Below are positions 2,490 to 27,108 of a DNA stretch of 47,602 bases, in pieces. Position 1 is the stretch's first letter. Each line of letters opens with the position of its first letter. A model generated the notes under the pieces. It saw only the letters and a program-made list of their open reading frames with translations. It made no database searches and was not told where the DNA came from. The DNA comes from a virus. The position numbers were made by a program, and so were the translations under genes. Location: positions 1-47,602 of the IMG/VR virus record IMGVR_UViG_3300025098_000079; one strand, 5' to 3'.

Positions 2490-2998
2490 ATTCTATTCCA
2501 CCGTCTTCCTTTGCCCACTCCAGGCTCTAAAAAAGATTTCATTTGAGACTCCCAGTCATTTACTGTCATTCCTGAAATTCCAGATAAAGATATGTAGGAA
2601 GATTCATTTTGAATCAAAATGTCGTCTTCTCTTTCCCAGCGCACAGTTGCATTTTCGATTGCTTCGGCTGTATTTTGAAAAGCATGCAAGGTAATCCTTC
2701 TACCTTTTATATTGTCGTCTTCGCCATAAATCTTTAACTCTTCTATTGTGTTTTTCCAGACTACACTTCTAAACTCTTTGTTGATGTGATCGAATACTAT
2801 TAAGTGTATACCATTAGGGTAAAAGCCTTGAGTAGGCTCACCTTTCTCTACTACTAGTTTTATAAATTTAGTAGTAGGATTATGCGCCCCGCATACATCA
2901 ACAATGGTTCCTGTTATAACAACTCCAACATTAACGTTTTGTATTGCCGTATAGTCGTTGCTTTGCCTTTCGGCAGAAATTACACTTCGTCTAGACAT
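2486..2998 (-). CDS. Baseplate protein with OB-like beta core, probable spike/hub component
   Basis: This 170-residue protein overlaps the stop of the giant hub gene by one base (TGATG) and the next gene by four. After about 20 polar residues comes a beta-rich core: NVGVVITGTIVDVCG, FIKLVVEKGE, IHLIVFDHINKEFRSVVW. This strand order resembles the OB-fold of T4 gp5-type or phage P2 gpV-type spike proteins. The C-terminal 60 residues are polar and end with a basic GKGRRWNRI tail. Position directly after the hub supports a spike-base or hub-adapter role. No lysozyme or beta-helix repeat is visible; the lytic domains are instead in the giant hub protein. The fold is inferred by eye. Confidence 0.62.
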   Translation of the reverse strand: MSRRSVISAERQSNDYTAIQNVNVGVVITGTIVDVCGAHNPTTKFIKLVVEKGEPTQGFYPNGIHLIVFDHINKEFRSVVWKNTIEELKIYGEDDNIKGRRITLHAFQNTAEAIENATVRWEREDDILIQNESSYISLSGISGMTVNDWESQMKSFLEPGVGKGRRWNRI

Positions 2999-5900: not shown

Positions 5901-8900
5901 TTGTAACAAACGTTGTCTTGGCTCCCATTTTTAATAATGGCATGCCAAAAGTAAGCAATCCAACACCAATACCAATACCAAAAGTATTATCTGATACCCA
6001 ATCAAAGAAGTTTCTACTTAAACTAAAATTAAAACTACTTTCTTTTTTATATATATCTAAATCTAAAGAAAAGTCTTTGTATTCGCCAAATTGAAATACT
6101 GCACCCACCTTAGATCTTCCGAAATGCTTCAACTCATCGCTTAACATCATGCTACCTAATAATTGATGTGTACTATAAAAAGCATGTGCACTATTTTTAT
6201 TTTTATTTCCGTTGCCTTTCCTCAAGGCCGTGAGCTCAACACCAAAACTTTGTACAGTGATATTACATATACTATTATTCTGCGCGTAATTTATGTCTGC
6301 AATCTTGCCTGAGATAAGCACGTCCAGCTCGTTAGTGTTGCTTTCATAACCAGCTCTAAGTTGAACAGTTACTCCTGGTCGAAGCACTATACTATCAATA
6401 AAGTTGCCTTCTTTTTTGAAGTTTTCTTCTTTTACATTTGGGTCTAGATCAACGTCTCTTAAAGCTCTTTTTTTAGTCCCATCTAGCACTCCGGAAATGT
6501 TTTGTAATTGTATAGTGGCTGTAGAGGCTGCTAGCTCTCTTGAGTTGTGAACATTAAAGCTAATTACAGAGTTGTAGTAAAAAAAATCATCGAAAGCAGT
6601 TAATCGATCTGTATAGATTTCGTCCTCTTCAATTAGATACAGTCTGAATGTTGGAAAAGCATTTTTCATGGTTTTTAATTTGTAAATATTTTTACTGCTA
6701 TCTTCAGACAGCCCCATAATGCTTTCTTTTCCGTAATCCTGCTCTATCTGCTCGCCTAATGTACGGTTGAGTTCTTTGTCTCCAGATTTTTTAATCTCTT
6801 TTAAGAAATCGTCTTTAATTTTAAAACCAAGACTACTGCCAAAAGCGCTACTGAGCCTGCTAAGCTCCTTATTATACCTAGAATCAATCGCTTTGTTTGT
6901 TTCGGCTACTGTCTTCGTTACGGTTTTTATTATTGCAGGTACAGCATTACTACTTGATGAGACCATGCTTTCACTCACAGTTACATTTATTTGAGCTTCT
7001 TCACTTACTTTTTCCGTGTTGTCAAACACACCAATTTTAATTGGCGCTCCATAAGCCATCTTTTTCTCGTCTGATTCTCCAGTAATCATAAACTCAGAGA
7101 TAGATCTCAAAACCTCTGTGCTATCCACAAGCTCGTTCACTATTTTTGTAGCAGATTCATTTCCTTCAAGCTTACTTTCAGGGCCAGTAAATATTCCATT
7201 TCTCAATCCTTTTTGAAACTGAATTGAGCTATTTAATATTTTGTCTGCAGCTGCAAATTCTTTTTCTTTTGCAGACTTAACCATTGTGTCTAATATGTCA
7301 TTACCGTCATGGTAGTAGAAACATGGAGACAAATTGGAATTGCTATAAAGATTATTAGGATCTTGAGGCAAGTCAATATCTGGGTAAGCATTTTCTTCTA
7401 GAAGTTCAAAAACGGTACTTCCATCAAGTACTTTTAATAAAGTTGCATCTCTTGAATTTTCTACTATTTTTGGGTTTAAAGACATGTGCTCTTCTAAAAT
7501 TGCGCTCAGAAGTTTCCTTAAGTAAGCAATTTTAAATCTATTCTCATTCTTTAAAGCTTCTTTCCCTTTGATTGTATTGAAATATTCTTTTAAGCCGTTT
7601 TTATTTTTTATTTGATAAGTGACTAGATATGGAAATCTATTCTCATTCTTTAAAGCTTCTGGATCCGATTTAATTTGAGCAGGATTCCTTGTATTAGGCC
7701 AGTAATATGGATCACTCTCTGATTGTTTTAAATAAGAGATAGTCTTATTTGTTTTATCTATTTTTAAAATGTGATGATGATCTTCTTCATCAGGACCGGT
7801 CGTATTTACAGCTGGAAAAGTGAATAAAAATCTTAAGTAATTTTTCATTTCTTTTAAAGTTAGTTCTTCTGCAAGCGCAAAGTTGGCCAACTTTGCATTT
7901 ATATTTCCATTTTTATCATAAATGCCTTCGCTGTCTTTAAGGCTTCGTCTTATTAAATTTAGAGCTCTGCTTGATGCATCTAATTCAGACGCTACTTTGT
8001 TGAATTTTTCAAATATACTGAGTTCAGAAAATATTGGTTTGACGTGATTGTTGATTCCGCTGCGGACCGTATCCGCACGACCTATCTCAGTTAAAAAATC
8101 TCCAATCTTTCGCCCGCCCTTAACACTTATATTTACTCCTTCTCCAATAAGAAAATTCTTATTTTCTTCAAAGTATTTAATATAGAGTTTAAAGCTCTCT
8201 TTATCCTTTAAGAATTTTCCATGGGAGGCCATGCCTGCAGTCACTCGTTCTAATTGCGATTTACCTTGACTATCTAAATTGCCTCCTAAAGCATCCCAAA
8301 CACCATACATTTCAAGTGCTAAAAATACGCCACTAATAACCCACCCTGCAGGGTTAATCTTGGTACCAGCAAAAAACAACGCTTGACTAATTCTATGGAG
8401 TGTTATTCCGGTGCCTATAGCACTTGCAGTTAGTGCAACTCCTTTTGTTGATTTTGAGATGTTGTTCGCTTCGCTCAGTATGGCTCCTGTGCTTAAACTT
8501 GTAACTCCCGTGAAAAGCCGCTCTGTGGAAGTATAAAAAGCAGGCAATACAGGAAAATTGTATAGTTCTTTTTGAATGAACTTCATTTCATCTTCAAATT
8601 CTTTGGCAGAATCTGTGTAGAGGTAAGGCTCCGTCAACATTAACGACGCCAACTCAGTAAAGCTTTTTAAAAGCTTATTGTTATTTAATTTAGCTCTAGT
8701 TAATGCATCTCTCTGAGCGCTCTTTGCATTTACTTCTCCTACATTAAAGAATAATGATTTTGATTTTAAATCACTTTTATCTGTTATTACCCTGCTAGCA
8801 AACTGAGTTTTGGCCACTCCACTGAATCTATCCATTCCTAGAGAGCCTGGAACTACGCTTTGAACTGTTTTAGTGCCATACTCAGTTGATGTTTGTATGT

Positions 8901-11900
8901 TTACTTTTAGCTCTTTCCCGTAATAACGGGTTACAGCTTTTATTACAGCCTTTTGTTCTTCACTTAGTTTCTTTTTGCCTTTGGGTGGAAAGAATTTTAT
9001 CTCATACTTATTACCTGCTTGGGATATTTCAAAGTTGTATCTTCTCACTTTCCTCTCAGGTATCACTGCTTGAAAAGTAATCGATGCAGGCGTTACTGTT
9101 TCTTGATAAAGACTCTTTATTGCATTAGTATCTACTAGATTATTATCTGACAGGAAAGTAATAAAATCTTCAGGCTTTGTAGAGGTTAGCTTGTATGCTT
9201 CTATATCTGCACTCTCTCTTGTGTCCTCCTTTAAAGCGGTTTTATCTTCTTTAGCTAAATCCCCTTCCTCTATTTCTTCAGCTTCATCATTGTCTAAATC
9301 ACTTGATTCTTCAACTGCATCATCATTTGTTGGTAAATCGCCACTATCGAATACTTCATATATTCTTGGGAGCAAATATTGCACATCGTATTTAGTTCCA
9401 TGACTGTGACTGTGACTTACTATAGTATAACTGCCATCAATTACTGTCGCTAAAGGTACATCTCTAGAGTTAAGATTAGGTTCATCAGTCAAATCGTTGC
9501 TAAACATTTTTGGGACACTAGGAATCCCTGGAACAATCCTATGAAGCTCATTAATAAAGTGGCATGCAGCTTCAATTAGCTTATCTGGGAACTTTAATAT
9601 CTGCCTTGGCCCGTCTGGGCCTGGATTATCAATTACCTCAAACCCATATCTTTTTGCATTAGACGTTACAGGAGACAAAGCAAAATCAAAACCTATTGAG
9701 TTTGCATTAAAATTCCCCGCATGATTTGCTTGGTAGGCTGCGTCTACCATTTGGCTAGCAATTATAGTTCCATCTTTTTTATAACTTATACCAAAGTGAC
9801 TACTTGTCGTGGTACCGGCCCATGTTCTTTTTAGAAACTCTGCGTTATGTCCACCATGGTGCAACATAATAAACTTGATATCATCGAGATCCCTCGGAGC
9901 TCGGCCAATCTGACCATCTGCATGATCTGTCTGTATGTTTATCTTTTCGTTTTGAGTGAAGTTTTCAAACTCAAATAAACCTCTAGTGTCTATTTCATAG
10001 CCTTTACCATTTATTATGACGCCTTTTTGGTCTTGTTGCTTGTAATACTCTTTTAAAGCGTCGTCAAAGCCACTTTTTCTTATATAAGCTTTAATAATAG
10101 CTATGTCTTCGTTCCAAAACTTCTTTTGATCAATAAACCGATACGGATCTTCTTTACCTCCCCATCGTCTTCTACTATCTCTCACATTCCAAGAAGAACC
10201 AATTTTATTTGCATGGTTAACAACAAAGTTTACGTCTAAATGTATAAAACTACCTGCAGTGTTGGGCATAAGGTTATCATTAAAAATAGCTGCAGTGGGA
10301 CCGGCGTTAGCGCCGGTCCCACTAATCCTGCCGCTTTGTCCCCCAATAGCACTACCGTAAATACCTATTCCAAAAATCCTTCTTCTGTTTCTTTTACCTT
10401 TTCTTTTGCCTATGCTGTCGAAGAAGAATCTTCTTTCTTCCAAGAGTTCAATTATTGCAGCTGCTTCACAAACATTCATATTATTTATGTATATGTCTGC
10501 AGCCCCACCTGTGAAGTGATTAGAAGCTGTATCTCTGCTTCGTCCATCTAACTGTCTATCTAATGTAGAAAACGCATTGATAGCAAAATTCTTAGGGTTT
10601 GTTCCACTTATAGCTCTATGCTTTAAATAAATATTTAAAAACTTCTGTAACGGGTCTAGGTAATCCTTACAAAATTCAAAAGCATTCTTATCTATATCCC
10701 CTACGAGTATTTTTTCAAGTCCTTGATTTTTAATCTGCGTCCTTAAATGCTTTTTTGAATGTGCATAGAAAGACTTCGCACCGAAATATATAGTATTCCA
10801 GTAATGATTTACATATTTGGCCGTAGAGTACGACCTGGCATTACTGCTAACTGCACTTCCTCCTTGAGGACCAATATTAATGCCGCTTTGCTGAATTACT
10901 GAAGCGTACCTGCTTAAATAATTCTCATCTACTTCGGAGCTTTTTGCCGCCCTTACTTCCTCTTCATCATAACACTTACTTTCACTAAAGCGTAAATTCA
11001 ATCCAACCGCTCCCGGTGAACCTTCAATAGTAAATGTATCTACAGAAGAAATTAAAAATCTGGGTTTTATATCTCTGATTACAGCTTCTTGCTTGTTGTT
11101 AAACTCGACGACTTTTTCATCATTGTCAGCATATTTAAAAGATCCTACAAGTTTTGTTATTAATGACTCAACGACAATATTTGCAGCGTCAGGTATTTGA
11201 GGAAAATTCTTAGCCATGTAAGCGGTATGCGCTCTGACGTTTTCTAATTCTTTGATTTTCGGAGGAAGCCCGTCACCAATTCCAGTGTACCCGATAAAAT
11301 TAAACTGATAGCTAGGTTCTATGCTACCTAGAAACTGATGCGTAGGGTATTCATAACCAAGTACAGGAATAGAGCTGATAATGTTTCTCAAGCTACAAGA
11401 AACGTTTGTTATATCTTGCTCAAACTTTGGAAAAGAATCGCTGTTTACTCCGAAAGTATCCTTACCTGTGATCGCTTTAACATCTTCTTCAAACAAGTTA
11501 GAGTCGAATGAAAGTATCAGTGCTTTTTGAAAAACATTCTCTAGGCCACTTCGATACTGGTACTGAGAAAACCCTTCTTCTTCAATTACTCTTTTAATGG
11601 AGTTAATGTAAGGTAGATCCTTTTCAGTTAAATATGTTTCGTTATCATTGCCTAATGAAACTTTAGAAACAGACCTTTTAACGACTTTACTGCTTTTTAC
11701 ATATTTTTCTTCTAAAGCTTTCCCAGTTAGTGTTAAGCAAAGATCATTTATTAATTGTCCACTTGCATTTATTGTAAACTCATTGTTCGTGTCAAAGTAT
11801 CCAACTATTGTTCCCGCAGGAAAAACCTTTCCTTCTTGAGCCTTAATCCAATAACGCAAGTTCTCTTGCTCTTGTACTCCGCTGTATACTATCTTTTCTT

Positions 11901-13392
11901 CTTTTACACCACTTCCATTTGTAATAATTATTTCCCCATTATTACTGTATGTGATCTTACCAGCTCTGATAGTCATTACTGCAAAAGCTAAATTGCTTGA
12001 ATTGTTTTCATCCCATTCCTGAGTATTTTGAACTTTATAGCCAGCGTTTGAAGTGCCTGTTATAAAAACATTACTACCAGGAGAATAATACCCAAAAGCT
12101 TGTAAAGATCTTTGTATTGGTAAAGAATATTCTTGAGAAATCGGGTCTATAGCTAGCCTTAAGTCTCTATCTTGTGGCGCACTTAAAGTTAAACCAGAGG
12201 TTACTGGTTTTGCTTCATTAATTACAGCTTCTTTTTTAGCTTCGTAGTCTTTGAAAAGTTTAAAGATTTTCTGTTTATTTTTTTTTATAACTTCATTTTG
12301 ACTTTTTTCATTCATCCCTTTCACAATGCCTTTACGCAGACTTTTTCTGTGCCTGAATAGGAAGTTCCCCCCTAAGTTTAAAGACTTGTATTCCTTTGTC
12401 ACAATTCTCGTATTAAGTCCACTCAACAGTATCGAATGCGTCAGGTCTTTTCTGAACTTTAAAAGTTTATCATTTTTAATTCCATTAACTTTTAATTCGT
12501 GAATCCCTACTACGCTTGGTCTTTTAATGTTGCCTTCATACGCAGTACCCTGAAATAAATTGTAAACCTCTTCGTCTACAAATACCTCGTTTGGAACAAA
12601 CTCTTCAATATTTTCCGTCCCTTTAACTACGTTTATTCCAAAACTTTCGTTTAAATATTTCAATTGCAAGAAGTTCGAATACCGTTTGTAAGCATTCGAT
12701 TTTCTTGGGTCCGTAACAACACTTCTGCTTCTCGAAATAGCTTGTCTTGATAAGCTAAGAGGATTGTTACCATTAGGAGGGCTTAAGTCTCTTATTGTAT
12801 TATTGCTACGTTTTAAATTTTTGCTGTATTTTAAAAGCGGCTTTCTTTGATCGGGCGTGCCTTTATATGTTGGGAAAATGGAATGCACATATTCTTTCAC
12901 GCTTCCCTTATCTTCGACTTTCACTGTGTAGTCTTTTCTAAAGGTCAAAGATCTTCCAAAAGGTTTGTAGTTGAAATACCTTAGATCTAATTCTACTAAA
13001 AAAGCACCTGGCGAGCTAGGGTGGTTTGCAATGTTCAAACCAAACACAGTAAAATAGTTAATTTGTGTAGCTACTGCATGGGTGTCTGATATGCTTTGCT
13101 GTATGAAACTATTTTGAATAGACACAAAAGGGTTGTTTCTTACTTGAGAAATCAATCGGTGCAAAAGTAGCAATGAGTCTGGTGCAAAAGTAATGCTAAC
13201 CTGCGCGTGATAGTTACCATTTCCTGAAGCTATTTTTGTGGAAACTCTAGATCTTAAAGTTTTCCACGCATATTCCAACCCCTCTTTATGCACTGATATT
13301 GCTGTAGGTGGAATATGAAGCTCAATATCGTTAATTACAAAATTAGCTTCTTGAGAATTAAACAGATCAGGAATGTTATTCAATTCACGCAT
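2998..13392 (-). CDS. Giant baseplate hub protein with M15 peptidase and Amidase_2 domains
   Basis: This 3464-residue protein appears to combine the tail hub with two cell-wall hydrolases. An N-terminal beta-rich module (1-170) seems to recur near 720-860, each copy with a PSSPGA or SPGAVGL loop. An M15-type D,D/L,D-peptidase follows, with SNHFTGGAADI (957-967) and FIHLDV (His 1051). An Amidase_2/PGRP-like N-acetylmuramoyl-L-alanine amidase comes next: HHGGHN (1178-1183), IGFDFA near 1233, and HSHSHGTKYD, whose His 1327-1331, Lys 1334 and Asp 1336 match the zinc and catalytic C-terminal motif of the family. Hub-like (gpD/gp27) pieces lie at about 2245-2440 and 2850-3150. Hydrophobic segments occur near 1650-1700, 2470-2760 and 3318. 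The protein probably digests peptidoglycan locally and anchors the spike. The ATG at 13392 follows the preceding stop by three bases. Confidence 0.85.
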   Translation of the reverse strand: MRELNNIPDLFNSQEANFVINDIELHIPPTAISVHKEGLEYAWKTLRSRVSTKIASGNGNYHAQVSITFAPDSLLLLHRLISQVRNNPFVSIQNSFIQQSISDTHAVATQINYFTVFGLNIANHPSSPGAFLVELDLRYFNYKPFGRSLTFRKDYTVKVEDKGSVKEYVHSIFPTYKGTPDQRKPLLKYSKNLKRSNNTIRDLSPPNGNNPLSLSRQAISRSRSVVTDPRKSNAYKRYSNFLQLKYLNESFGINVVKGTENIEEFVPNEVFVDEEVYNLFQGTAYEGNIKRPSVVGIHELKVNGIKNDKLLKFRKDLTHSILLSGLNTRIVTKEYKSLNLGGNFLFRHRKSLRKGIVKGMNEKSQNEVIKKNKQKIFKLFKDYEAKKEAVINEAKPVTSGLTLSAPQDRDLRLAIDPISQEYSLPIQRSLQAFGYYSPGSNVFITGTSNAGYKVQNTQEWDENNSSNLAFAVMTIRAGKITYSNNGEIIITNGSGVKEEKIVYSGVQEQENLRYWIKAQEGKVFPAGTIVGYFDTNNEFTINASGQLINDLCLTLTGKALEEKYVKSSKVVKRSVSKVSLGNDNETYLTEKDLPYINSIKRVIEEEGFSQYQYRSGLENVFQKALILSFDSNLFEEDVKAITGKDTFGVNSDSFPKFEQDITNVSCSLRNIISSIPVLGYEYPTHQFLGSIEPSYQFNFIGYTGIGDGLPPKIKELENVRAHTAYMAKNFPQIPDAANIVVESLITKLVGSFKYADNDEKVVEFNNKQEAVIRDIKPRFLISSVDTFTIEGSPGAVGLNLRFSESKCYDEEEVRAAKSSEVDENYLSRYASVIQQSGINIGPQGGSAVSSNARSYSTAKYVNHYWNTIYFGAKSFYAHSKKHLRTQIKNQGLEKILVGDIDKNAFEFCKDYLDPLQKFLNIYLKHRAISGTNPKNFAINAFSTLDRQLDGRSRDTASNHFTGGAADIYINNMNVCEAAAIIELLEERRFFFDSIGKRKGKRNRRRIFGIGIYGSAIGGQSGRISGTGANAGPTAAIFNDNLMPNTAGSFIHLDVNFVVNHANKIGSSWNVRDSRRRWGGKEDPYRFIDQKKFWNEDIAIIKAYIRKSGFDDALKEYYKQQDQKGVIINGKGYEIDTRGLFEFENFTQNEKINIQTDHADGQIGRAPRDLDDIKFIMLHHGGHNAEFLKRTWAGTTTSSHFGISYKKDGTIIASQMVDAAYQANHAGNFNANSIGFDFALSPVTSNAKRYGFEVIDNPGPDGPRQILKFPDKLIEAACHFINELHRIVPGIPSVPKMFSNDLTDEPNLNSRDVPLATVIDGSYTIVSHSHSHGTKYDVQYLLPRIYEVFDSGDLPTNDDAVEESSDLDNDEAEEIEEGDLAKEDKTALKEDTRESADIEAYKLTSTKPEDFITFLSDNNLVDTNAIKSLYQETVTPASITFQAVIPERKVRRYNFEISQAGNKYEIKFFPPKGKKKLSEEQKAVIKAVTRYYGKELKVNIQTSTEYGTKTVQSVVPGSLGMDRFSGVAKTQFASRVITDKSDLKSKSLFFNVGEVNAKSAQRDALTRAKLNNNKLLKSFTELASLMLTEPYLYTDSAKEFEDEMKFIQKELYNFPVLPAFYTSTERLFTGVTSLSTGAILSEANNISKSTKGVALTASAIGTGITLHRISQALFFAGTKINPAGWVISGVFLALEMYGVWDALGGNLDSQGKSQLERVTAGMASHGKFLKDKESFKLYIKYFEENKNFLIGEGVNISVKGGRKIGDFLTEIGRADTVRSGINNHVKPIFSELSIFEKFNKVASELDASSRALNLIRRSLKDSEGIYDKNGNINAKLANFALAEELTLKEMKNYLRFLFTFPAVNTTGPDEEDHHHILKIDKTNKTISYLKQSESDPYYWPNTRNPAQIKSDPEALKNENRFPYLVTYQIKNKNGLKEYFNTIKGKEALKNENRFKIAYLRKLLSAILEEHMSLNPKIVENSRDATLLKVLDGSTVFELLEENAYPDIDLPQDPNNLYSNSNLSPCFYYHDGNDILDTMVKSAKEKEFAAADKILNSSIQFQKGLRNGIFTGPESKLEGNESATKIVNELVDSTEVLRSISEFMITGESDEKKMAYGAPIKIGVFDNTEKVSEEAQINVTVSESMVSSSSNAVPAIIKTVTKTVAETNKAIDSRYNKELSRLSSAFGSSLGFKIKDDFLKEIKKSGDKELNRTLGEQIEQDYGKESIMGLSEDSSKNIYKLKTMKNAFPTFRLYLIEEDEIYTDRLTAFDDFFYYNSVISFNVHNSRELAASTATIQLQNISGVLDGTKKRALRDVDLDPNVKEENFKKEGNFIDSIVLRPGVTVQLRAGYESNTNELDVLISGKIADINYAQNNSICNITVQSFGVELTALRKGNGNKNKNSAHAFYSTHQLLGSMMLSDELKHFGRSKVGAVFQFGEYKDFSLDLDIYKKESSFNFSLSRNFFDWVSDNTFGIGIGVGLLTFGMPLLKMGAKTTFVTKITSWYAGAGKGAAFARGVGRYVNAVFVKPISFINPFGISQRAKDLIIKRAQNLSNLVARSSTKNPLAAQLAGYAPVINTFDDALEYLIRANRYNLAPGTFGPLGMEALKLNSIGGLNSLVVNTGGRFAALRSNVIAHGYLNGSVVTLFQKIAQILTAGKYQAGNKLGEEFLKQVIVKQRGFGALGMSGLGPSLMSKTWLGSKIGVDILARGYSSITLPLAVGFTGGLVTSVMLAGADVIIDSAKFMYYSMLGSFSEDKNKLKKKKLLSPQDDNIFSPHPKQYMINVPSTTYSYWDSLASAGSEWVEAMSKESKKLINNSTWGMINITNDSKLKDLKLSPFSLVDKRLDVAQYENTFIVNGQTIWDILHECTLRHPGYIYGVRPYGNSLEYRVFFGVPSQRYWSKKISNNQIRKLNAIYVALKEANGGALSMKNIGELFPRELALSNDTDSSNGDKLKKFFTEKAYDYFIKKTKDRFVPFRQFHLVSSKRNLVSNNVIVSSHNMINAVSVNFINNRKDLDGSQEGLSPNDWSPHLSKFGDQIETLRFRANRNISMNNLKEKTVSSRNIIGPSNAVRYGLGELLHGTRKMYEGSLTILGDTKINPWDVVVLHDDITNMYGPVEVCSVTHMLSFETGFITDVEVNALVTANEELSHPMIMQNLVYETRARVFDEYNSFNAMGNSMEEKTKAVREIVEDEVENLIDETIAKEGGFLRYQAGAGIAINPNDITEEKKQEIVNKISDYVIKNYQNSSNANFLNDLVPEGATIPKELTDVINTAGGLSASISGAFFGGELLRRRLASSNGLKILGNGPLKMGLFFASSLFLAQSGDAINAAFSSSYSSGDLGKNMFRQHILSRMDAGNIIQLYPLVKDGVPLVTGGFEEVDETEKWNNMLGYIYNNATSTIKGYVKRQQEMKAYGKRVMQSYDKNELSSLKSAITVNLSKIASSVVGLEKSLSMLGYMYMDED
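7534..7660 (-). repeat. 28-bp exact direct repeat, 99-bp period, inside the hub gene
   Basis: The 28 bases at 7534-7561 recur exactly at 7633-7660. The period is 99 bases (33 codons), so both copies read in frame as EALKNENRF. The sequence between them does not repeat. The flanks differ (SDP before one copy, KGK before the other). This looks like a short in-frame duplication or recombination scar in the linker between the amidase and hub parts. Confidence 0.9.
7877..7896. repeat. 20-bp perfect palindrome in the hub gene
   Basis: GCAAAGTTGGCCAACTTTGC is its own reverse complement. It lies within coding sequence, and no homologous protein constraint obviously explains it. Its function is unknown. 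Confidence 0.85.
10294..10323. repeat. GC-rich perfect inverted repeat (13-bp arms, 4-base loop) in the hub gene
   Basis: Arms AGTGGGACCGGCG (10294-10306) and its exact complement (10311-10323) flank a TTAG loop. The element is about 70-75% GC in an AT-rich gene, so the mRNA should form a very stable hairpin. It encodes SGTGANAGPT between the two M15 metal-binding motifs, probably a surface loop. On the coding strand a TTTTT run begins a few bases after the stem. The element could pause or attenuate transcription, bind a protein, or be an inserted palindromic repeat. Confidence 0.9.
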
Positions 13393-13395: not shown

Positions 13396-16300
13396 TTAAT
13401 CTCTCATCATTTTATTAATATAGGCATTACCTATCGGCCTTCTATTGTCGTTGACAGTCAGTGACGCCTGCCCTCCAGCCGATACAAAGTGCTTGCCCAT
13501 AGTTTGAGCTGCAGAAAGGCTTGGAGCCTCTCCGTACATCTTAATTGAACGATTCAATGATACAGTACTCACTCCGCTATTGATAGGTCTTTCATAAAAA
13601 TTATCAATCCCATTTATCTTACCTGGGCTTACGTTTCCGTGCTCTCTACTAAAACTTTGTTGCAAAGCTCTATTGCTTAAACCTTGCCCCGCTTTTAAAG
13701 CTTCTTTAGAGATAGAATCGGAAAATTTACCTCCAGGTTCAAGCGAGCTGCTTGGCGAATTTGCTCCCACAGCATACGAAGCCAAAAGCGAACCTGCAAT
13801 TACTCCAGCCAAACCCTTGCTCCTGCTAACGGTTTCGCTAAAAGCACTTCTAGCAGAATCTACTTTAGAAAAAATCGATTCTATTTCATCAAGCTCGCCA
13901 GTAATCACTCCACCTTCCATTGAAAAACCCTTGTTCATTAGTTGGAACAATTGCTGGCTGTTAAACCTAGAAGAACCTTCTAATTTTCTTCCAAGTGCCT
14001 TGTTAGATGTAAAATCGTTAAATCCATATTTTTTTACATTTCTAGCCATAACATCAAAAGAGTCAAATATTTCTTGGACATTTAAATTTACGTCTCCTAG
14101 AGCTTCTCTAAACTTTTTCGTTGCATTACCTTCTCCTAAGTTATGGAACTCAATTGACTTTGCATCTATTTTTAAGTTGCCTTCAGCATTTTCCAACAAA
14201 GTTCCTTTGAATATCTTGTCCTGGAAAAAGCTTTTTAGAGCATCGCCCTTACCCGTATTAAAAGATGTTTTTAAAGCACTTAGGTATTCCCTAGAAATGT
14301 TAGCAGCAATCGGAAGCTTCTTGCCTTTAATTCCTAAAACTTCTTGAGCCACTGATATTAAAGCTGCTCCACTTTGAATTTTTTTAAATTGAGCTGCAAA
14401 ATCTCCACTAGTATCATCTGCAGCAGACTGTGCAAGTCCCAGCATTCCTGCTTTAACTTGCACATCTAGACCACCAATTCCCTTTACTATTTGTTCTTTC
14501 TGGTACTCGTCTACAATGGACTGAGCAACTGTCATTTGTGAGGCTCCCATGCGCTTCCCTAGCTTCTCTACACCTTCCCCAAGCAGGCTCATGTTAGTTA
14601 GAAACTCTGCACCATAAGTGTACATTTTTTTTGCGTCGATCCCTTGGTTTTTCATTTTATTTTTTAAAGTCTTGTCTACATCAAAAAATACCTGATAAGG
14701 ATCCGCGTCAAAGTCTCCAATGCCAAACCTTGCAAAATCCATGCGCCCAGAAAAGGCAGTCCTTTTACCTGTATTTACATCTTCTATTTGCATGCTCATG
14801 TCTATTTGAGGAAACCTTACAGTCCCTCCTCCATGCTCGCCTTTCTCTAAGTGCTTGTTAAGCATATCTTTATATATACCACCATAAGCACTAACTTGCT
14901 CTTCGTTTAGTTTTCCGCTTTCTTTCAACAATCTTAGTTCAGCCAAATCGGCACCTGTTTTAACTTCTCTTCCCAAAACATCGTCTAGGATTTTTAAAGG
15001 CCTGCTTATACCAGGCGCTCTTGGCTGAGTTTTGTTTCCTTGAAAATCTGTATCTAAACCGCTTACTTCAGGAGCGTTGTTCATTATTTTTTCATCTATA
15101 TCTTTTATAGTTATATCACCTTCATTTTCTATTGATTCTTTTTGAGCATTTTCTATTAATTGTTTTTGAGCTTTGATTTCGTCTTCTTCTTGATTTAATC
15201 TTTCTATTTCTTCGAAAAGCGCTTTTCTGCGTTTTTGTTTACCCCTAAAAGGGTTTTTTTCCATTTCGTTAAGATCGCGCGTTGCTCTTTGTGAAATTTC
15301 TCTTTGTGAATAGAAATTTGACGCTCTATCTTTCACCTCTGACATTTTTACTTCTTCTCCTCTAGCTTCTCTTCTGATTACATCGTAGGCGTCTATCTTT
15401 GTAGCTTGAGGCGCAAGAGTGTAATTGCTGTTTTCATTAAGGACTTTTCTTACCCTTCCTCTGTTTCGAGAACTTATCCTCTCTAAGAACGGTTCGAGAC
15501 TTTCTTCTGTAACCATGCCTTTTTTTCGTGCCGCTATAATTTCTTCAGAAACTGCTGGCCCCACTCCTTTTAGCTGCATCAATTCCTCTTTTGTTGCTAA
15601 GTTTAAATTCACAACACTCGCTCCACCACTTCTTACTTCTTTTATCCTCTGCGATATTTGCTCCCTATTCATATTGATTTTGCTCCGACCCTTGTTGTCA
15701 GGTTGAGCTAGTTCTTCTAAAGGGTTCAATTTACTCCCCGTTTGATTTCCATACTCATCAAGTAAGGGTACGTTTTTTCCAGAAAACTTTCTTGCTAAAA
15801 ACTCGTTTTCAAAGCCTTCCAAGCTTCTCAAGTGAGTTTTATTGTCAGCATTAAAACCAAAAAAAGGTCCCATTTCGTTTATGAATCCAATAGCCTCTTT
15901 TTTATTTTCGAAATGCCTAAAAGAAGATGTCAACCTACCTTCATCTACACTCCTTCCATATGCTCCAACGTCTTCTATAGTTTCTGTGAACTCTCTTTCT
16001 AAACTACGTCTTATGTTTCCTTCAGAGACATCACCGCCTCCAAGAACAGCCCTTCCGTAAACGTCTTTATTTTTATCAGCAGCGGTAATTTGTTCGTTAA
16101 TTTTATGTATTTTATTATCAATAATTTTTGCTTCTTCATTAAGACCTTTAAGTTCCTCTGCCTTTTTGCTATATTCTGTAGTTTTTGTTGAACCAGCTTT
16201 ATTAAACTTCTTAATTTGTTCAATTATCGGCTCGGCCTTTTTTTTTATTTTTGAAAACTGATCTTGCAAAAGAGCTACTTTACTATGACGTTTAGCTTGT

Positions 16301-19300
16301 GCTGCACCTACGTCTTCAGCAAGAAGGTTCAAATTACTTTCTTGAGGTAGGTTTCCTGAAAATACACCATGCCGCCTCTCTATAAACCCTCCAGGTTCTT
16401 CTAAAATCTTTGAAGCATCTCGCCTTTTGTTTAAAAGGGACTCCCTTTCAGCAACAAACTTTTCGTAACCTTCTTCACCTTTTATACTGGCTCTTTCTTG
16501 TTTGATTTCTTGCCTTTTGGCATAAACTTCTTGCCCCCTAGTATAAACAGCATCTCTTTCATCAAGTTTTTCTAAACCAGTAACCCCTTTTAATATTTCC
16601 GAAACTTTATCTTGGTTTAATGATTTTCTAATCTTTTTAAGATGCTCTACATAATCCGGTGTAAACTCTTCTCCTTTTTCTACATTTCTTAAAAACTGTA
16701 GTGGTTTTAGCTCTTTTTCAAAATCGTATTGATAAATACCCATGCTTGCAAAAATGTGTGAAAAACCTATGAGAGGATTTCTTTGTATCGTTCCAGAAAT
16801 TCCTTCTTTTTTGCTTCGATGCATGCCAGTAAAAAAGGCTTCCAAAGTCTCTTCCATTATTTTGTTTGTTTCTTTTTTGGTAGAGACTTTACCTTGAGAA
16901 GCTAAATGTTTATTTATTGCTGATTCGTAGGTACCCATTCCATCTAGGAAAGCCTGTTGATCCATAAATGCAACATAGCCCATTTCTTTGTTTACCACTT
17001 CAGACAAAGAGTCTACAATTTGCTTTTGAACATTCAGATCATCGCTAAAGATTGTAGCTCCAACGCCTTTTTTTCCTAAAGTGAACCCACCTCCCATATA
17101 AGAGCCTGATCCTAAGATTTTACCACTTAGTGTACTCCTGATCGCTGTACCCGTTATTTTGCTTAATCTTTTTCTAACTTCAGTAAAGCCTGAAATTGAT
17201 TTTTCGATTTCATCTTCATCAGTTCCAGCATCCTTCAACGAAGATAAAGATGATAGCAAGTCTGTAATATTTCTTCCGTATTCAGCTTCTACTTTTATGA
17301 CTTCATCACTCGACCTGATCTCATGGCCTAAAAACCCTTGAAAGGTATCTTCTCCTGGGAGAAATATTTCTTTTTTGCCTCCAGTAAATTCGTACAGCCT
17401 ATCCAGCCCCTCTTTAGAGAGGCCCATTTTTTCTAAATCAAGTATGTTCCCTCCTTTCCTGGCAGACAGTTTTTCAACGACTTCTTTCTCTTTGCCTTGC
17501 CCAAGGTCTAAAAGTTCAGTTACCTCTTCTTCGGTTAGTTTACCAACATCGCTTAAACCTGATATCTGCTCTTTTATATTTGTTGCATCAAGCTTTCCAA
17601 GAGATTCTTGTGTCAGCTTCATTCCCATCAAGCCTCCAGCGCGACTTTCGAATCCTTCCATTCTGGTTATCATTGAAGAAACGTATCCCGTCGCTTCTTT
17701 TGAATCCATCCCCCAAAAGGATCTTAAAGAAGAATAAAGATAGTTCGCAAACCTTGGTTCAGCCTTAGCTACGCTTCTGCCCAGGTCTGTATGTGGAGTA
17801 CCAACAGTTCCAAACGCAGCACCGATTACCACACCTCTTTTTGCTGTCTCTTCGATTTTACTTAAATAGGGATCAACATCAACTACACCCGCGTCTTTTA
17901 AACCCGCAGCTATTTTTCTTTCAAAATATTCTAAGTTTAAACCAAACTTTTTATTGCTTGCTTGGTTTCTAGCATAAGACATTACCATTCCAAAATGATC
18001 AGCACTTATTCCTTCATCACCAGCCCTTTTTGCAATTGTTTGAAAGAACTTCCCTAAAGTTGAAGCGCTTTTTTGCTTTGCAGACACTTGGTCTACATTT
18101 GTTAGCGTGCTTTTAAAATCACCCAATTGGTTGTCATTTATTTCGGTAAGCAATTCATCTGCATTGTCTAAAGACCCCATACTAGTATTTAATGCTTTGT
18201 CCATTGCTGCTTCATCCAACCCGAGCATCTTCATACCTCCGTGTATCTGCGTACGCAGATACCCAGCAGACTTTCCCAATTGAGCTGTTGTGGTAAGCAA
18301 GGTGTTCTCTATCCTTCCCCCAAAACCGTCTTTATTGAAAAACACCTCTCCAATGTCACGAACACCCAACTCTTCCAGTTTCTTCAACATAGAAGATTCA
18401 TTAATTGTAAGCGTTGTGTCTTTGGCTAAAGAAGAGAATAGTTTGCTATAATCAACGTCTTGCAACACTTGGCCTTTAAGATGGTAGCGGTCCCTTCCTG
18501 TTTCCATGCTTTTTTCAGAAAGCCCAAGCGTAAATCTTTTCATACCTTTGTGACGTTTGATGTGCACAATTCTGTCGTCTTGTTTTCCTAAAACAGCACG
18601 CCCTTCAGAATCTCCAAATTGTTTGAAAAAATCATCAATATCGTAATCGTCACCATCAACGAGTGAACCTATAGTTAAAAACTTTCTGTTATTGTCTTTT
18701 GAAGCATTTAAAACTTCCGTCAATAACTTGCTCTGGTTAATACCTTCTTTGTTTATGGTTTTTGTATAACCTTTTTTAACCTGAATGGTGCCCCCCATAT
18801 AACTCATCCCTTCACCAAGGCCTAATTGAGCAGCAGGGTTTTTTATTTTTTTTGCTCCGTGTTGTGCTTCTTCAAGTTTTTCAAAAATCATAATAGCGCC
18901 AAAGTTTACGCCTCTGATATTTTTAGATACTTCCTTATCACTGGTGATTCCAATCAATTCATTGCTTGCCCCAGATATTTTAATGTCTCCCTTTTTTCCA
19001 AAAGTAGCGTCTCTTTCAACACCTGCAAACCCTGCTGCTAATTCGGGTCTTCCGTAAACTTGACCAGCACGCGCTGTTTGAGGCACTAAACTGCGGTCCA
19101 GTCGCCCATACCTTTTCATCGCATTGAAGGCCGTTTTTGTTTTTGTTCCAGAATCATTCTCCAGTCGCTCAATATGACCTACTATCATTTCTCTTTTTAA
19201 ATCAAATGGATCCTTAAATCTAGAAGTCAAAGTTTGCGAACCTGAAGTACCTCCATAAATTTCTGACTCATATTGAAGTATTTTTTTCGTTACTTGCTCC

Positions 19301-20583
19301 CTGTCTTTTTGTGCAAATTTTTCCAGTCCAGCAATTCTATGTATTGATGATTGAAAAGCTCGAGAATCTATAAGTGTAGACATCAAGTCTTTGTCGATTA
19401 AATTTATTTCTTTTCCACCATTAATTGTTCTGCTTGAATTCAATCCTTCAATCATTGTTCTTGGGGTCTCTATTGACATCGACCTAATATAGTCATTGTA
19501 CTCATTTATATTTGTCACGCTAAAATTTTGAAAAGACTGTTTGTTTTCTTTTATCAATCCAAATAAATGATCTTCTAAGCTCATTGTAGCGTCTTTTAGC
19601 GCAGCTGCTGCCCCAGTCCCCTTTGGGGTTGCTAACTGATTCAAATCTAAACTAGGGAAAATTTTTGCAGCGTCTATTACACCCCCACTAGTAGTGTACC
19701 GTGTAGACATATTCTCCGTCCCTCTTATTATTGTCATTCCAGATCTTGGGTCTTTAGCCAGGTCTAAAGCTACGTTTTGAAACCTCCCACTGCTATGCTC
19801 TACTCTCGCATAAGTAGACTTACCTTCACCTGGTCCATACTCTTCTAAAGATACTAATTGTATATTCTTTCCTGAAGCCATGGATTTAAGTTCCCCATAT
19901 TTCTTCGTCGCTTTTCTACTCAGATCACTTGTCGATGCTGACTTCCACTCTACAGTGGAGGTTCCTTCTGTTGTGAAATCTTTGAAGGTGGTATTGAATT
20001 GGCCTTTTGTTTTCATCATTGAAGAGTGTCTTTTTTTGAATTCTTGCAACTTTGGACCGCTAGTACTTACACTACTTTTATAAAAATCAATAGCAGTCCG
20101 CATATCAACCTGTTCGATGTTTCCTGTTTCAACACCTTGGTACAGTTTTTCTAACGATGCTTTTAGTGATCCCGAATCATCAATCATGCTTTCGCTAGCA
20201 GTATCAAAAAGTGCTGACAAAAAAGCCCTTGCTTCATTTGCGGAAGATGTTTCATTAAACATTCTTTCTAGGTTCTCACTACTTAAAATCTCCTCTTTAA
20301 AAGTTTTAAGTGCTACTTTCCTGCTTTCGTTTACAACACTCTTTAACCTTTCAGCATCTTTTCTAATTATGCTTCCTGCCCGACCTAACTCATTTTGCGA
20401 AGCAGAAGAGTTCTTTAAAGCCCCTAAGCTCTTCTTTACACCTGATGTTAAATTTACATTCTCGTTTAACAGGTAGGCTGTCCCAGCCACAGCAGCGGCT
20501 CCTATTACTGTGCGTCCAGTGTTTTTTATATTCGACACTTCTTTATCTTTTTGCTGCTCATTTAATAGATTTATTAAAGACAT
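13396..20583 (-). CDS. Giant virion protein with HhH and candidate two-barrel RNA polymerase active site
   Basis: This 2395-residue protein sits between the tape-measure candidate and the hub. Hydrophobic segments occur at both ends (about 25-43 and 2245-2265). Long charged coiled coils lie near 1355-1400, 1440-1505 and 1760-1825. A ComEA-like helix-hairpin-helix is at 1655-1700 (NLATKEELMQLKGVGPAVSE; GVGP at 1673-1676). At 1923 RFP precedes DFDAD (1957-1961) by 34 residues, and GIGG (Ile 2036) and IKGKK (Lys 2086-2089) follow. This order resembles the catalytic barrel of beta-prime and of crAss-like virion polymerases (RxP, then DFDxD). GLGEGMSYM (588-596) and HLKGQ (Lys 703) may belong to the partner barrel, which is weaker evidence. 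The alternative is a second tape-measure or internal tail protein. ATG 20583 follows the upstream stop by one base, with GAGG in range. Confidence 0.7.
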   Translation of the reverse strand: MSLINLLNEQQKDKEVSNIKNTGRTVIGAAAVAGTAYLLNENVNLTSGVKKSLGALKNSSASQNELGRAGSIIRKDAERLKSVVNESRKVALKTFKEEILSSENLERMFNETSSANEARAFLSALFDTASESMIDDSGSLKASLEKLYQGVETGNIEQVDMRTAIDFYKSSVSTSGPKLQEFKKRHSSMMKTKGQFNTTFKDFTTEGTSTVEWKSASTSDLSRKATKKYGELKSMASGKNIQLVSLEEYGPGEGKSTYARVEHSSGRFQNVALDLAKDPRSGMTIIRGTENMSTRYTTSGGVIDAAKIFPSLDLNQLATPKGTGAAAALKDATMSLEDHLFGLIKENKQSFQNFSVTNINEYNDYIRSMSIETPRTMIEGLNSSRTINGGKEINLIDKDLMSTLIDSRAFQSSIHRIAGLEKFAQKDREQVTKKILQYESEIYGGTSGSQTLTSRFKDPFDLKREMIVGHIERLENDSGTKTKTAFNAMKRYGRLDRSLVPQTARAGQVYGRPELAAGFAGVERDATFGKKGDIKISGASNELIGITSDKEVSKNIRGVNFGAIMIFEKLEEAQHGAKKIKNPAAQLGLGEGMSYMGGTIQVKKGYTKTINKEGINQSKLLTEVLNASKDNNRKFLTIGSLVDGDDYDIDDFFKQFGDSEGRAVLGKQDDRIVHIKRHKGMKRFTLGLSEKSMETGRDRYHLKGQVLQDVDYSKLFSSLAKDTTLTINESSMLKKLEELGVRDIGEVFFNKDGFGGRIENTLLTTTAQLGKSAGYLRTQIHGGMKMLGLDEAAMDKALNTSMGSLDNADELLTEINDNQLGDFKSTLTNVDQVSAKQKSASTLGKFFQTIAKRAGDEGISADHFGMVMSYARNQASNKKFGLNLEYFERKIAAGLKDAGVVDVDPYLSKIEETAKRGVVIGAAFGTVGTPHTDLGRSVAKAEPRFANYLYSSLRSFWGMDSKEATGYVSSMITRMEGFESRAGGLMGMKLTQESLGKLDATNIKEQISGLSDVGKLTEEEVTELLDLGQGKEKEVVEKLSARKGGNILDLEKMGLSKEGLDRLYEFTGGKKEIFLPGEDTFQGFLGHEIRSSDEVIKVEAEYGRNITDLLSSLSSLKDAGTDEDEIEKSISGFTEVRKRLSKITGTAIRSTLSGKILGSGSYMGGGFTLGKKGVGATIFSDDLNVQKQIVDSLSEVVNKEMGYVAFMDQQAFLDGMGTYESAINKHLASQGKVSTKKETNKIMEETLEAFFTGMHRSKKEGISGTIQRNPLIGFSHIFASMGIYQYDFEKELKPLQFLRNVEKGEEFTPDYVEHLKKIRKSLNQDKVSEILKGVTGLEKLDERDAVYTRGQEVYAKRQEIKQERASIKGEEGYEKFVAERESLLNKRRDASKILEEPGGFIERRHGVFSGNLPQESNLNLLAEDVGAAQAKRHSKVALLQDQFSKIKKKAEPIIEQIKKFNKAGSTKTTEYSKKAEELKGLNEEAKIIDNKIHKINEQITAADKNKDVYGRAVLGGGDVSEGNIRRSLEREFTETIEDVGAYGRSVDEGRLTSSFRHFENKKEAIGFINEMGPFFGFNADNKTHLRSLEGFENEFLARKFSGKNVPLLDEYGNQTGSKLNPLEELAQPDNKGRSKINMNREQISQRIKEVRSGGASVVNLNLATKEELMQLKGVGPAVSEEIIAARKKGMVTEESLEPFLERISSRNRGRVRKVLNENSNYTLAPQATKIDAYDVIRREARGEEVKMSEVKDRASNFYSQREISQRATRDLNEMEKNPFRGKQKRRKALFEEIERLNQEEDEIKAQKQLIENAQKESIENEGDITIKDIDEKIMNNAPEVSGLDTDFQGNKTQPRAPGISRPLKILDDVLGREVKTGADLAELRLLKESGKLNEEQVSAYGGIYKDMLNKHLEKGEHGGGTVRFPQIDMSMQIEDVNTGKRTAFSGRMDFARFGIGDFDADPYQVFFDVDKTLKNKMKNQGIDAKKMYTYGAEFLTNMSLLGEGVEKLGKRMGASQMTVAQSIVDEYQKEQIVKGIGGLDVQVKAGMLGLAQSAADDTSGDFAAQFKKIQSGAALISVAQEVLGIKGKKLPIAANISREYLSALKTSFNTGKGDALKSFFQDKIFKGTLLENAEGNLKIDAKSIEFHNLGEGNATKKFREALGDVNLNVQEIFDSFDVMARNVKKYGFNDFTSNKALGRKLEGSSRFNSQQLFQLMNKGFSMEGGVITGELDEIESIFSKVDSARSAFSETVSRSKGLAGVIAGSLLASYAVGANSPSSSLEPGGKFSDSISKEALKAGQGLSNRALQQSFSREHGNVSPGKINGIDNFYERPINSGVSTVSLNRSIKMYGEAPSLSAAQTMGKHFVSAGGQASLTVNDNRRPIGNAYINKMMRD
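18243..18262. repeat. 20-bp perfect palindrome inside the giant virion gene
   Basis: GTATCTGCGTACGCAGATAC is its own reverse complement. It lies in coding sequence for LRTQIH. It is one of two perfect 20-bp palindromes that I found in the window. Its function is unknown. Confidence 0.85.
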
Positions 20584-20584: not shown

Positions 20585-23500
20585 TTAACCTCTTATCGCT
20601 AAACTTAACATTGACAGGATCTCAGTGCTCCTATCGTCGTTGTAATGTATTTCCGCTCTACTATTTTCATAAGGAGCGTGAGAAGTGTTTATTAAGGATT
20701 TACTAAAATCTATTCCCGTAGAATTCTTCATTCCTCTTATAAGCCTGTTTCTTGCAGAGCTTCTTGATGGGCCTGGGCTCTCGTACATGAACATGTCAGA
20801 ACCTTCCAAGTATGGCCTTCTCGAGGCTCTTCTAACTTGGCTATTCCAGACGTCATAATCGTGTGTCTCTTGACTGCTATTGTCTATGTATTTTACTTTA
20901 ACATCTTCGATATCGACATCTTTGTGCCATCCGATCCAATCAGGCCCAGGTAGAGGTTTATTTATAAAGTACTTTTCAACCTCTTGCAATTGCTGACTCA
21001 TATAGCCAGGATCTATGTTTGCTTTAGCACCTGCACCCATTAATGTCAATTTTTCACCGCTATCAACTCTGCCCCATACAGCTTTATAAAGATGCACTTG
21101 GTCTTCAGGTACAAGCTCTAGTATTTTTTCTCGATCAGCTTCTCTTGCATTTGCAAAAGCGTCAAAAAATCTTTTTTCTGCATTCGGAAGGGATAAGTAC
21201 ATGCTTAAAGCATCTCCATTAGGATTCACTCCCGTCCTAGTTTGAGCTGCCATCTTCATGTATCTTTGACGGTCCTTGCCATTCTCTGCACCTTGTGCAA
21301 GCTGCATAAACTTTAAAAATTGTAATTTATCAAAATGGCTGTCTAATTCTTCTCTTTTAGTTACATGTAATGGTTTTCCGCCCCACCCCATTAGGTTAGC
21401 TGCACTATACAAAGCTGGTCTGAACCAGTCCCTTACGTGCTTGTCCCAAAAAGCGTTTGTCGTACCGTAAACTCTTTCCTGCTCGTAAGCTTCTATTGCG
21501 GACCTTGTTTTACCCAAAAGTTTTTGCGTTGGTCTAAACCCGCCTGGAATTAAATATTCCGCAGGCGCACTCACTTTTCTAATTATGCTTTCTGCACCTT
21601 GATATAAACTTTTGGTGATATCTGATACTACAGGAATTTTAATAGCATTTTTCGCATACTCAAAGTCCCTAGTAGGTGCGAGCTTTTTTCTATGTGCTTC
21701 AGAAGCGTTTTCTAAAATTCTATTTTCTAAATCAGTTGTAAGCCCAGCGACTCTTCTTTCCATTAGTTGATTTCTTAACCGAATAGTCTCTCTCGATTTA
21801 GGCGACAAATCAGAGAGTATCTTGTACTTATGTATGTCCGGATAGTCTTCTGGATCTAGACCTTCTACCTCTGGGTTTAAAGCTTCATAAGCTTTTCCAG
21901 GCATTCTAGAAAACCCATTTGGAATCGATCTGTATGGGTCTCCCCTCCTGTATCTTGCAGGCATCCATGAAGGCATTGTGTTGGCAATTGGGTTGTACTT
22001 TTCAATTGTAGATCTTGGTCGAGGAAGAATTCTTCTTATTGGCTCTGAAGTAAAACCTAGCCCACCCAAATCCATATCCCAATAATCTAGCACTCCAGAA
22101 TCCATGTCTGAAGAAGAGGCCATTTGAAAATCTCTTGTACCTATTGTTTCCCTACCGGTTACCAGTTTTTGCAAATAGTTTTTTGTATAACCAGTAAGAC
22201 CCTCTATTTCTCTGAACTGATACTGCACTTCTCCTAAAAGCGAAGACGTAGAGTAGGGGCTTTTTGGAACTCCTGGCCCCATTTGGCCTAAAGCTTTACT
22301 AGATCCAAACTCTTGCAAGTAGGTGTGCTCGACTTGCCCTTTGTCGTTGATTTGCATCAACTCTTCTTCATGCATTAGCCTTGGGGGTTTTATTAACCGA
22401 CCAATTGTATTTGAAAGTATGCTCCCAATAACGGGCACATCTTCAAAAGCAGAGCCACTTATTGGGTAAGGCCTATCATAGTAATTTTTCTCTTCCAAAT
22501 GGTAAGTAAAATTCTTCAACATAAAACGGCTTAAAGGAGAGTATTCTTCTGTTTCATCTCCCCAAACAGCTTTCTCTTTTGCTTGCGTCATTAAAGATAC
22601 ATAAGCATGCGGCCTAAAATAACTAGTTTCATTCCCTCCCAAAGGCGTCCCGCCACCTTCCCACCATCTTCCTTTTTTAATTTCTACAAGCTTTTTACCA
22701 GAATAAATTTCTTTTAGTTCATCTGGGTTTTCCATTGTACCAAAAAGGCTTCCCGTTAAAAGCTGATGTGTTGCTGCAACCCCTAAAAATAAAGCTCCAA
22801 ATCTTCTTAAAATAGGTGAAGCATTTAAACTTTTAGCAAACTCATCGTAAGTCTTAGTTACTTCTTCACCGTTAACCATTCTTGTTACGTCCCCTTTCAT
22901 CGGGGCGCCCAAGAATGAATGAAATATTTCTGCTCCAAGTATCTCAGTACGCCTTAGCGTGTTGTCTAAAATGCTTCCGGATTTATATTTACTGTTTATT
23001 ATTTCAATTCTATCTAATAAAGATCTATTTAAATCATTGGATTTGTAATTATTATCATAAACGTCTGATCTAATTTTTGCATTTATATTATATTCAAAAT
23101 CTAAGATTTCTTTCTCTCTTTTCGACACATCTGTAATGTTTCCGACAATTTGAAATAGATCTTTATTTTTATTAAAAAAAGTACCTAACTTTTTTATTTC
23201 TGAATTCTCTAAATCTCCTGCCCCTTTATTTTTAATTATTTCGTCAATACGCCTCGTATACTCTTTTATTTCCGGCGAGCCCGCATGTAGATTTGAAATC
23301 TCCTCACCAAGAGGGTTGTATTTCATAAAATTTTCGCTGTAATTGCCACTTCCAGATTTTATTGGTACTAATGCATCATATAACGCTGATGCTTTTACTT
23401 GCTTACTTGTTAGAGGTATATCTACTTTTCCAGTTTTGGCGGAAGCAACTAAACCCACCCTGTCTTTTATAAAATCTGGCACAACTTTTTTTGCAATCTT

Positions 23501-26643: not shown

Positions 26644-27108
26644 TTATTTAAGATTCTTAAATTCTATTGATCTACTTAAGAAACTATATTCTTCTAAAAG
26701 CACTTGTTCAGATATTTGAACTGTTTGCCCTCTAGAAATAATATAACAAGTTTTTAACACAATGTAACTTTGATCTCCAAATCTTATTTTAATATCAAAC
26801 GCCTCTGTTAAAAAACCATTAAATGACATCATCTCCGCCCGGCTTGAGACGGTAGAAAGAATGTCATTTATTATATAATCTGGTTTTACATAATTTACAA
26901 CAAAATTACCTTGCACGATTTCTCTTCCTGGGAGCATTGCATCGAATTTTGTAGATGCGTATCCGTAAACAGGTTGTTGAGAGTTCTGTATGCTATAACT
27001 TATCCCTGCACACTCCAGCACCTCTTTGTAGCCAAGTTCTTTATCTGCATTTTCGAATGCAATAGATACATTTGCTCCAGAAAAATATTCGTAATTATAA
27101 AAACTCAT
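26644..27108 (-). CDS. Tail-tube-fold protein (fourth of four paralogues)
   Basis: This 154-residue protein has a single tube-like domain. Its core GISYSIQNSQQPVYGYAS, followed by LPGREIVQGNFVVNYV, lines up with the tube core of the two upstream genes (ALSYAIQREKAPIYVMGS, then RGKRGIAGT). The C-terminal part (ILSTVSSRAEMMSFNGFL, then strands ending SRSIEFKNLK) is T4 gp19-like in layout. Being the shortest and closest to the chaperone and tape-measure genes, it may be a tube initiator or a hub-to-tube adapter like T4 gp48/gp54, not the bulk tube. The four-base gap to the upstream gene and poor Shine-Dalgarno suggest low, coupled translation. The paralogy is visible in the sequence; the exact role is inferred. 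Confidence 0.65.
   Translation of the reverse strand: MSFYNYEYFSGANVSIAFENADKELGYKEVLECAGISYSIQNSQQPVYGYASTKFDAMLPGREIVQGNFVVNYVKPDYIINDILSTVSSRAEMMSFNGFLTEAFDIKIRFGDQSYIVLKTCYIISRGQTVQISEQVLLEEYSFLSRSIEFKNLK

Follow-up and report, generated by a model that had tools for sequence, protein, structure and literature searches.

The giant gene and its surroundings

The window, a stretch of 47,602 nucleotides from the IMG/VR virus record IMGVR_UViG_3300025098_000079, contained genes for the portal, the major head protein, several head-decoration-like proteins and the sheath. The portal was 32–33% identical to those of Acinetobacter phage ME3, Bacillus phage KLEB27-3 and Moorella phage MTATph1, and the annotations of ME3 point to Bacillus phage 0305phi8-36. 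The portal, the sheath and the order and sizes of the genes also agreed with those of ME3, KLEB27-3 and phage-plasmids. Judged by these sequence comparisons, the window phage is a 0305phi8-36-like, contractile-tailed myovirus. Just downstream of the sheath gene, four successive ORFs (26644–30666) matched the phrog_9206 head protein family, which is an unusual series of paralogs.

The gene in this study is also located downstream of the sheath gene, between the orf145-like and T4 gp27-like hub giant genes, which is the position of orf146. In 0305phi8-36, orf147 is a T4 gp27-like hub with cell-wall-degrading domains, and orf146 was assigned as the tape measure chiefly because its length suits the long tail (PMC2147016). 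The features of the locus are as follows.

2998–13392, (−) strand: neighbouring protein of 3464 aa with an amidase domain, at the orf147 (T4 gp27-like hub) position
13396–20583, (−) strand: giant tail protein of 2395 aa, a candidate virion RNA polymerase (RNAP), at the orf146 (assigned tape measure) position of 0305phi8-36-like phages
14317–14349, (−) strand: AQEVLGIKGKK, residues 2079–2089, with invariant E2081, I2085, K2086 and K2088
14437–14499, (−) strand: KEQIVKGIGGLDVQVKAGMLG, residues 2029–2049, a bridge-helix/trigger-region candidate from its invariant residues and profile alignment
14701–14715, (−) strand: DFDAD, residues 1957–1961, a putative catalytic metal-binding triad with aspartates invariant in 11 homologs
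14809–14817, (−) strand: RFP, residues 1923–1925, with the proline invariant and the arginine in 4 of 11 homologs
15004–16683, (−) strand: residues 1301–1860, a highly variable insert, the length from R-x-P to DxDGD differing among homologs
15517–15618, (−) strand: helix-hairpin-helix (HHH_3) motif by Pfam match, residues 1656–1689, inside the insert
16756–16782, (−) strand: RNPLIGFSH, residues 1268–1276, the favoured R-x-P motif, with R, P and H invariant in 11 homologs
18484–18831, (−) strand: residues 585–700, a candidate for the partner barrel (the second double-psi beta-barrel, DPBB-B), with K608 retained by 10 of 11 homologs
20585–24982, (−) strand: neighbouring protein of 1465 aa at the orf145 position, a virion structural protein in relatives, without R-x-P/DxDxD

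The original prediction was that a multisubunit-type RNAP signature lies at positions 14310–14820, and the RFP, DFDAD, KGIGG (residues 2034–2038) and IKGKK (residues 2085–2089) motifs of the 2395-aa protein were all located there. An R-x-P followed by DxDxD after 28–45 residues occurred in 0.6% of shuffles of this protein. In a near-identical contig of 137 kb, the target ORF alone among 120 ORFs of at least 100 aa possessed the R-x-P and DxDxD pattern. The location of the RNAP candidate in a tail-protein cassette was likewise supported, and virion RNAPs of this kind have precedents. From this gene position, the protein would be present in the particle and delivered with the DNA. The gp034 of KLEB27-3 is annotated as a structural protein.

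Conserved residues and the choice of R-x-P

Close relatives of the protein were found on only three viral contigs, of which one was 100% identical and two were 56–57% identical over the alignment. The motif block was common to these relatives, and residues 2001–2061 were the most conserved stretch of the whole protein. A scan with a portal profile identified 80 contigs; twenty of them were searched with a full-length profile, and an orf146 homolog was found in ten. Eight diverged homologs were read and included in an alignment of 11 sequences. They were selected by portal synteny and the full-length profile and not by the motif. The polypeptide lengths of these eight, and of the orf146-position family of 11 sequences, ranged from 1645 to 3046 aa, one sequence being cut by its contig end.

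The three aspartates D1957, D1959 and D1961 did not vary in any of the 11 aligned homologs, where the triad was DFDGD in five, DMDGD in one and D[FY]DAD in five, consistent with a triad of the DxDGD type. Another acidic motif, DYDID (residues 646–650), was rejected as the catalytic triad, as it was not conserved in the diverged homologs. Moreover, E2030, K2034, G2037, D2040, V2041, E2081, I2085, K2086 and K2088 were invariant where present, as was G2049 in the segment of residues 2029–2049. Thus, two invariant lysine motifs are found downstream of the triad, on the side expected for a bridge helix and trigger loop, and they aligned with motifs of the Firmicute orf146 proteins (E 0.12). Upstream, K608 was kept in 10 of the 11 homologs, and residue 1155 was basic in the same number. 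The conservation of K608 gives some support to the predicted partner barrel near residue 590, which on sequence grounds is still a candidate. Within residues 585–700, TKTV.DP also resembles, locally and by eye only, KGTVIVDP of Thermus phage P23-45 gp96.

RFP1923, whose spacing from the triad is near-canonical, had been taken as the R-x-P motif of this signature. P1925 was kept in all homologs, whereas R1923 was kept in only four, and conservation was far above chance for the aspartates of the triad but not for R1923. RFP1923 is therefore unlikely to be functional as the R-x-P and is probably not the catalytic one. The functional motif is more probably R1268-N-P1270, where R1268, P1270 and H1276 (R-x-P-x5-H) were invariant in the 11 homologs. 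If RFP1923 were the R-x-P instead, which is what its pairing with the Firmicute RYP suggests, the barrel would be continuous and its arginine would be lost in most homologs; this arrangement is less favoured, and R1268 is moderately preferred over RFP1923.

Short homologs have 123–208 residues between R1268 and the triad, compared with 689 in the window protein and 1380 in the longest homolog. Thus, if R1268-x-P is the R-x-P of an RNAP, the catalytic barrel would hold an insert whose size varies by an order of magnitude, and the barrel would be split by 60–1300 residues. In the window protein, the conservation of the insert was low, with mostly 2–32% invariant residues per 50 residues. Given that it tolerates great changes in length, the insert of residues 1301–1860 may be structural or, with its HHH motif, may hold DNA. 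That this family is a virion RNAP in which about 60 to more than 1300 inserted residues (including the HHH motif in the window) divide the catalytic barrel between R-x-P and DxDGD, and in which polymerase and tape are one protein in contractile-tailed phages, is a tentative reading to which we give slightly less than an even chance. To our knowledge, no split-barrel RNAP architecture of this sort has been described.

The HHH DNA-binding motif in the insert, together with the nuclease domain of a protein encoded at another place in the relatives' structural cassette, would also suit a related two-barrel nucleic-acid enzyme that shares the DxDxD geometry but has a different activity, such as making primers or a function linked to the movement of DNA through the tail. 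However, the single-chain phage enzymes known to have this order of motifs are RNAPs (PMC10770324), and such an enzyme is highly improbable. Alternatively, the family could originate from a tape-fused two-barrel RNAP that decayed in the window branch, where the domain with its DFDAD, large insert and drift of R1923 would serve in tail structure only. Although DFDAD in place of DFDGD, the apparent interruption of the barrel and the lack of the signature in MTATph1 are all consistent with decay, the three aspartates, R1268, P1270, K2034, K2086 and K2088 were invariant and the most conserved stretch of the protein lies downstream of the triad at residues 2001–2061. The virion RNAP of phi14:2 likewise departs from DxDGD (DFDID). 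Decay of the polymerase is unlikely.

Positional homologs and alignments with RNAPs

The signature was also found in proteins encoded at the orf146 position of other phages and phage-plasmids. For instance, gp034 of KLEB27-3 contains RYP followed after 37 residues by DYDGD, and ME3_36 contains REP followed after 40 residues by DHDQD. The corresponding motifs were RYP/DFDGD in Cytobacillus, RNP/DYDGD in B. velezensis (whose gene was joined across the record start), RYP/DADGD in P. rhizovicinus and RYP/DSDGD in B. licheniformis, B. paralicheniformis, B. halotolerans and P. urinalis. The giant proteins flanking these positional homologs lacked the signature, except for RLP/DPDSD in two related orf145 proteins. 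The positional homologs had no detectable sequence similarity to the window family. The triad was located at 0.76–0.82 of the length in all complete orf146-position proteins, and its distance to the C-terminus was 437 residues in B. licheniformis and 438 in the window protein. Moreover, the spacing between R-x-P and the triad in the positional homologs equals that of proven RNAPs, which is 35 in P23-45 gp96, 35 in gp64 and 36 in phi14:2.

In MTATph1, which is of the same lineage, the giant genes were without the R-x-P and DxDxD signature. Its orf146-position gene (L047:30512–37868), which also lacks the RNAP signature, is short (1309 aa), and a transposase gene comes after it. The Firmicute orf146-position proteins, such as that of L054:9658–16524 (−) at residues about 100–335 and its relatives, possess an N-terminal 3'-5' exonuclease/RNase H-like segment, with weak Pfam matches to RNase_H_2 and DNA_pol_B_exo2, which precedes the RNAP signature.

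The Firmicute orf146 set was aligned with the triad region of P23-45 gp96 at an E-value of 7e-5, compared with 4.7e-3 for the best of 250 unrelated windows and 1.4e-3 for the best of 200 motif-implanted decoys. As the TSP4 relative of gp96 alone gave just 0.018 against the Firmicute set, this support is good but not uniform. In unrestricted comparisons, the top match of the 11-sequence profile with gp96 placed KKEGISGTIQRNPLIGFSH on LKEGDIAFTFRNPVMGHGG, with R1268 on R741 (RNP), at an E-value of 0.044; its second match with gp64 placed R1268 on R288 (RRP), and its third match with phi14:2 placed DFDAD on DFDID, with D1957 on D1361. The top unrestricted match with the Firmicute orf146 family covered 193 columns (E 0.12), in a register that paired RFP with RYP, the triads with each other, K..IGG with K..IG, and EV..IKGKK with EQ..I.AKK. 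The short members alone gave the same register over 145 columns (E 0.036). In the Firmicute proteins, the counterparts of residues 2029–2049 and 2079–2089 were K.GK..IG and [ES]Q..I[DS].K, respectively. The profile-profile E-values of the window family, which ranged from 0.03 to 0.7, were not individually significant, and the match of the triad region between the window and Firmicute families fell within the range of the decoys. Thus, the argument is the agreement in register at the catalytic residues, which suggests a relationship to RNAPs where no single E-value is significant.

Searches of Pfam, PHROGs, PDB sequences and PF00623 with the target protein revealed no RNAP match, and HHH_3 was the only convincing one. 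No homolog of the target protein was found by tblastn against 50,697 phages or in two contig scans, and whole-protein hhalign with three sequences aligned the HHH region only. AlphaFold models of 1200 and 266 residues, which were run without the 11-sequence alignment, had pLDDT values of 37.8 and 38.9, a very low confidence that is probably due to the shallow alignment.

The assigned tape-measure position and the lack of an RNAP family match would agree with a protein that is simply a tape measure or pilot, its DFDAD forming a loop for calcium or another metal that has no relation to RNAP. A calcium-binding loop had been regarded as the main alternative to the original prediction, and matches to tape-measure families only as evidence against that prediction; the profile searches gave no matches to tape-measure families. 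The EF-hand/dockerin pattern of DxDxDG with an acidic position 12 was also broken, as position 6 was P, T, I, L or N and never G, and position 12 was P in 5 of the 11 homologs. Moreover, the signature recurred with RNAP-like R-x-P spacing in the positional homologs and was aligned in register with RNAPs. A metal loop in an ordinary tape measure is thus very unlikely.

Quite probably, the target is a large virion protein that includes a highly derived RNAP of the single-chain two-barrel kind, its gene standing at the tape-measure position of a 0305phi8-36-like myovirus. The catalytic signature, the conservation and the synteny lend good support to the central idea of the original prediction: the triad, which is DFDGD in distant homologs, and the motif order of single-chain two-barrel RNAPs stood, and the R-x-P was corrected. 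In the proposed mechanism, D1957, D1959 and D1961 would bind the catalytic Mg2+ in DPBB-A, of which residues 1301–1860 would be an insert; K608 would lie in DPBB-B, with the basic residue 1155 kept as an alternative; and residues 2029–2049 and 2079–2089 would form the bridge/trigger region. Exiting the tail together with the DNA, the protein would carry out transcription of the first genes; by analogy with P23-45, one of these may encode another RNAP, of the non-virion type, like the DNDGD protein of a relative.

Candidate second RNAPs and comparison with known systems

Second candidate RNAPs were found in two marine contigs: a 2175-aa protein of G003 (L008:12974–19501 (−)) and a 2174-aa relative of G005 (L051:11037–17561 (+)), the latter being a 40-kb contig with a 100% identical portal. 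Both proteins contain VR[CA]P and CGDNDGDRN. In BLAST, the 2175-aa protein matched the target family mainly through its HHH region (E 6e-7). Neither protein had a Pfam RNAP match or a counterpart in the phage collection, and they are candidates for a new family of non-virion RNAPs. A second RNAP of this type was not found in ten further contigs, which is uninformative. An RdRP-family (PF05183-type) protein was identified in four of nine phage and plasmid records, all four being phage-plasmids and three of them above the cut-off. In 0305phi8-36, gp99 is also a PF05183-type RNAP (PMC2147016), while MTATph1 had neither the tape-position signature nor a second RNAP. Given the second RNAPs in relatives, phage-plasmids and 0305phi8-36, a pair of virion and non-virion RNAPs similar to that of P23-45 (PMC10770324) is plausible by analogy. 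A search for promoter motifs upstream of genes in two contigs did not reveal any that was clearly over-represented.

Other genes were also observed on these contigs. Proteins of 1340–1361 aa adjoin structural genes at L051:2054–6139 (−) and L009:5351–9373 (+); a staphylococcal-nuclease domain is present in the L009 copy, and an exonuclease-like MDIETTG segment was seen by eye in that of L051. The DNA polymerase III alpha fragment at L013:8306–9925 (−) has a weak match to intein splicing at its end, and the gene may carry an intein. A 1022-aa protein with long collagen-like repeats is encoded at L013:4381–7449 (−), away from the main structural cassette.

If the proposed reading is true, tape-fused virion RNAPs would not be peculiar to Thermus siphoviruses but would also occur in a large and old contractile-tailed lineage, the assigned tape measure of 0305phi8-36 would be an enzyme, the start of early transcription in these phages would be explained, and the strategy of two RNAPs, virion and non-virion, would exist in one further lineage. 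It would also mean that the catalytic barrel of life's most conserved enzyme core can accommodate an insert whose size differs widely. A literature search of partial coverage found no paper that describes an RNAP signature for the protein at the tape-measure position of 0305phi8-36-like phages, and some of these genes may be listed among the two-barrel RNAPs surveyed in the supplement of PMC10770324. As a kind, the tape-fused virion RNAP has its precedent in P23-45; what seems to be new here is the lineage, where in the protein the signature lies and the probable splitting of the barrel.

Within the lineage, 0305phi8-36 gp146, described as a tape measure (PMC2147016), is comparable by gene position, as are KLEB27-3 gp034, ME3_36 and the orf146-like genes of Bacillus, Paenibacillus and Cytobacillus phage-plasmids, where R-x-P and DxDxD were found in all that were read except MTATph1. 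As is proposed for the candidate, 0305phi8-36 gp99 is a two-barrel RNAP, of the RDR/YonO-like type (PMC2147016; PMC7824862). Different from it, gp99 is encoded by a separate gene of the right arm, outside the tail cassette, and would be the non-virion partner. The virion RNAP of the crAss-like phage phi14:2 (gp66 in the literature and gp077 in the record), which the original prediction had cited as the precedent, is also relevant: it is a single-chain two-barrel RNAP encoded beside giant structural protein genes, with a non-GD triad (DFDID) and a weak in-register alignment at D1361, but it has an R-x-P spacing of 36 and no significant sequence similarity to the window family. The closest precedent is instead P23-45 gp96, a virion RNAP fused to the tape measure of a Thermus siphovirus (PMC10770324). 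In both cases, the RNAP signature (R-x-P and DxDGD) is in a giant tail or tape protein, and the P23-45 genome also encodes a separate non-virion RNAP. In gp96, however, the RNAP is N-terminal in a 5002-aa siphovirus tape measure protein with 35 residues between R-x-P and DFDGD, whereas the window protein belongs to a myovirus and has its triad at 0.82 of the length, and its R-x-P is probably located 689 residues before the triad owing to the insert.
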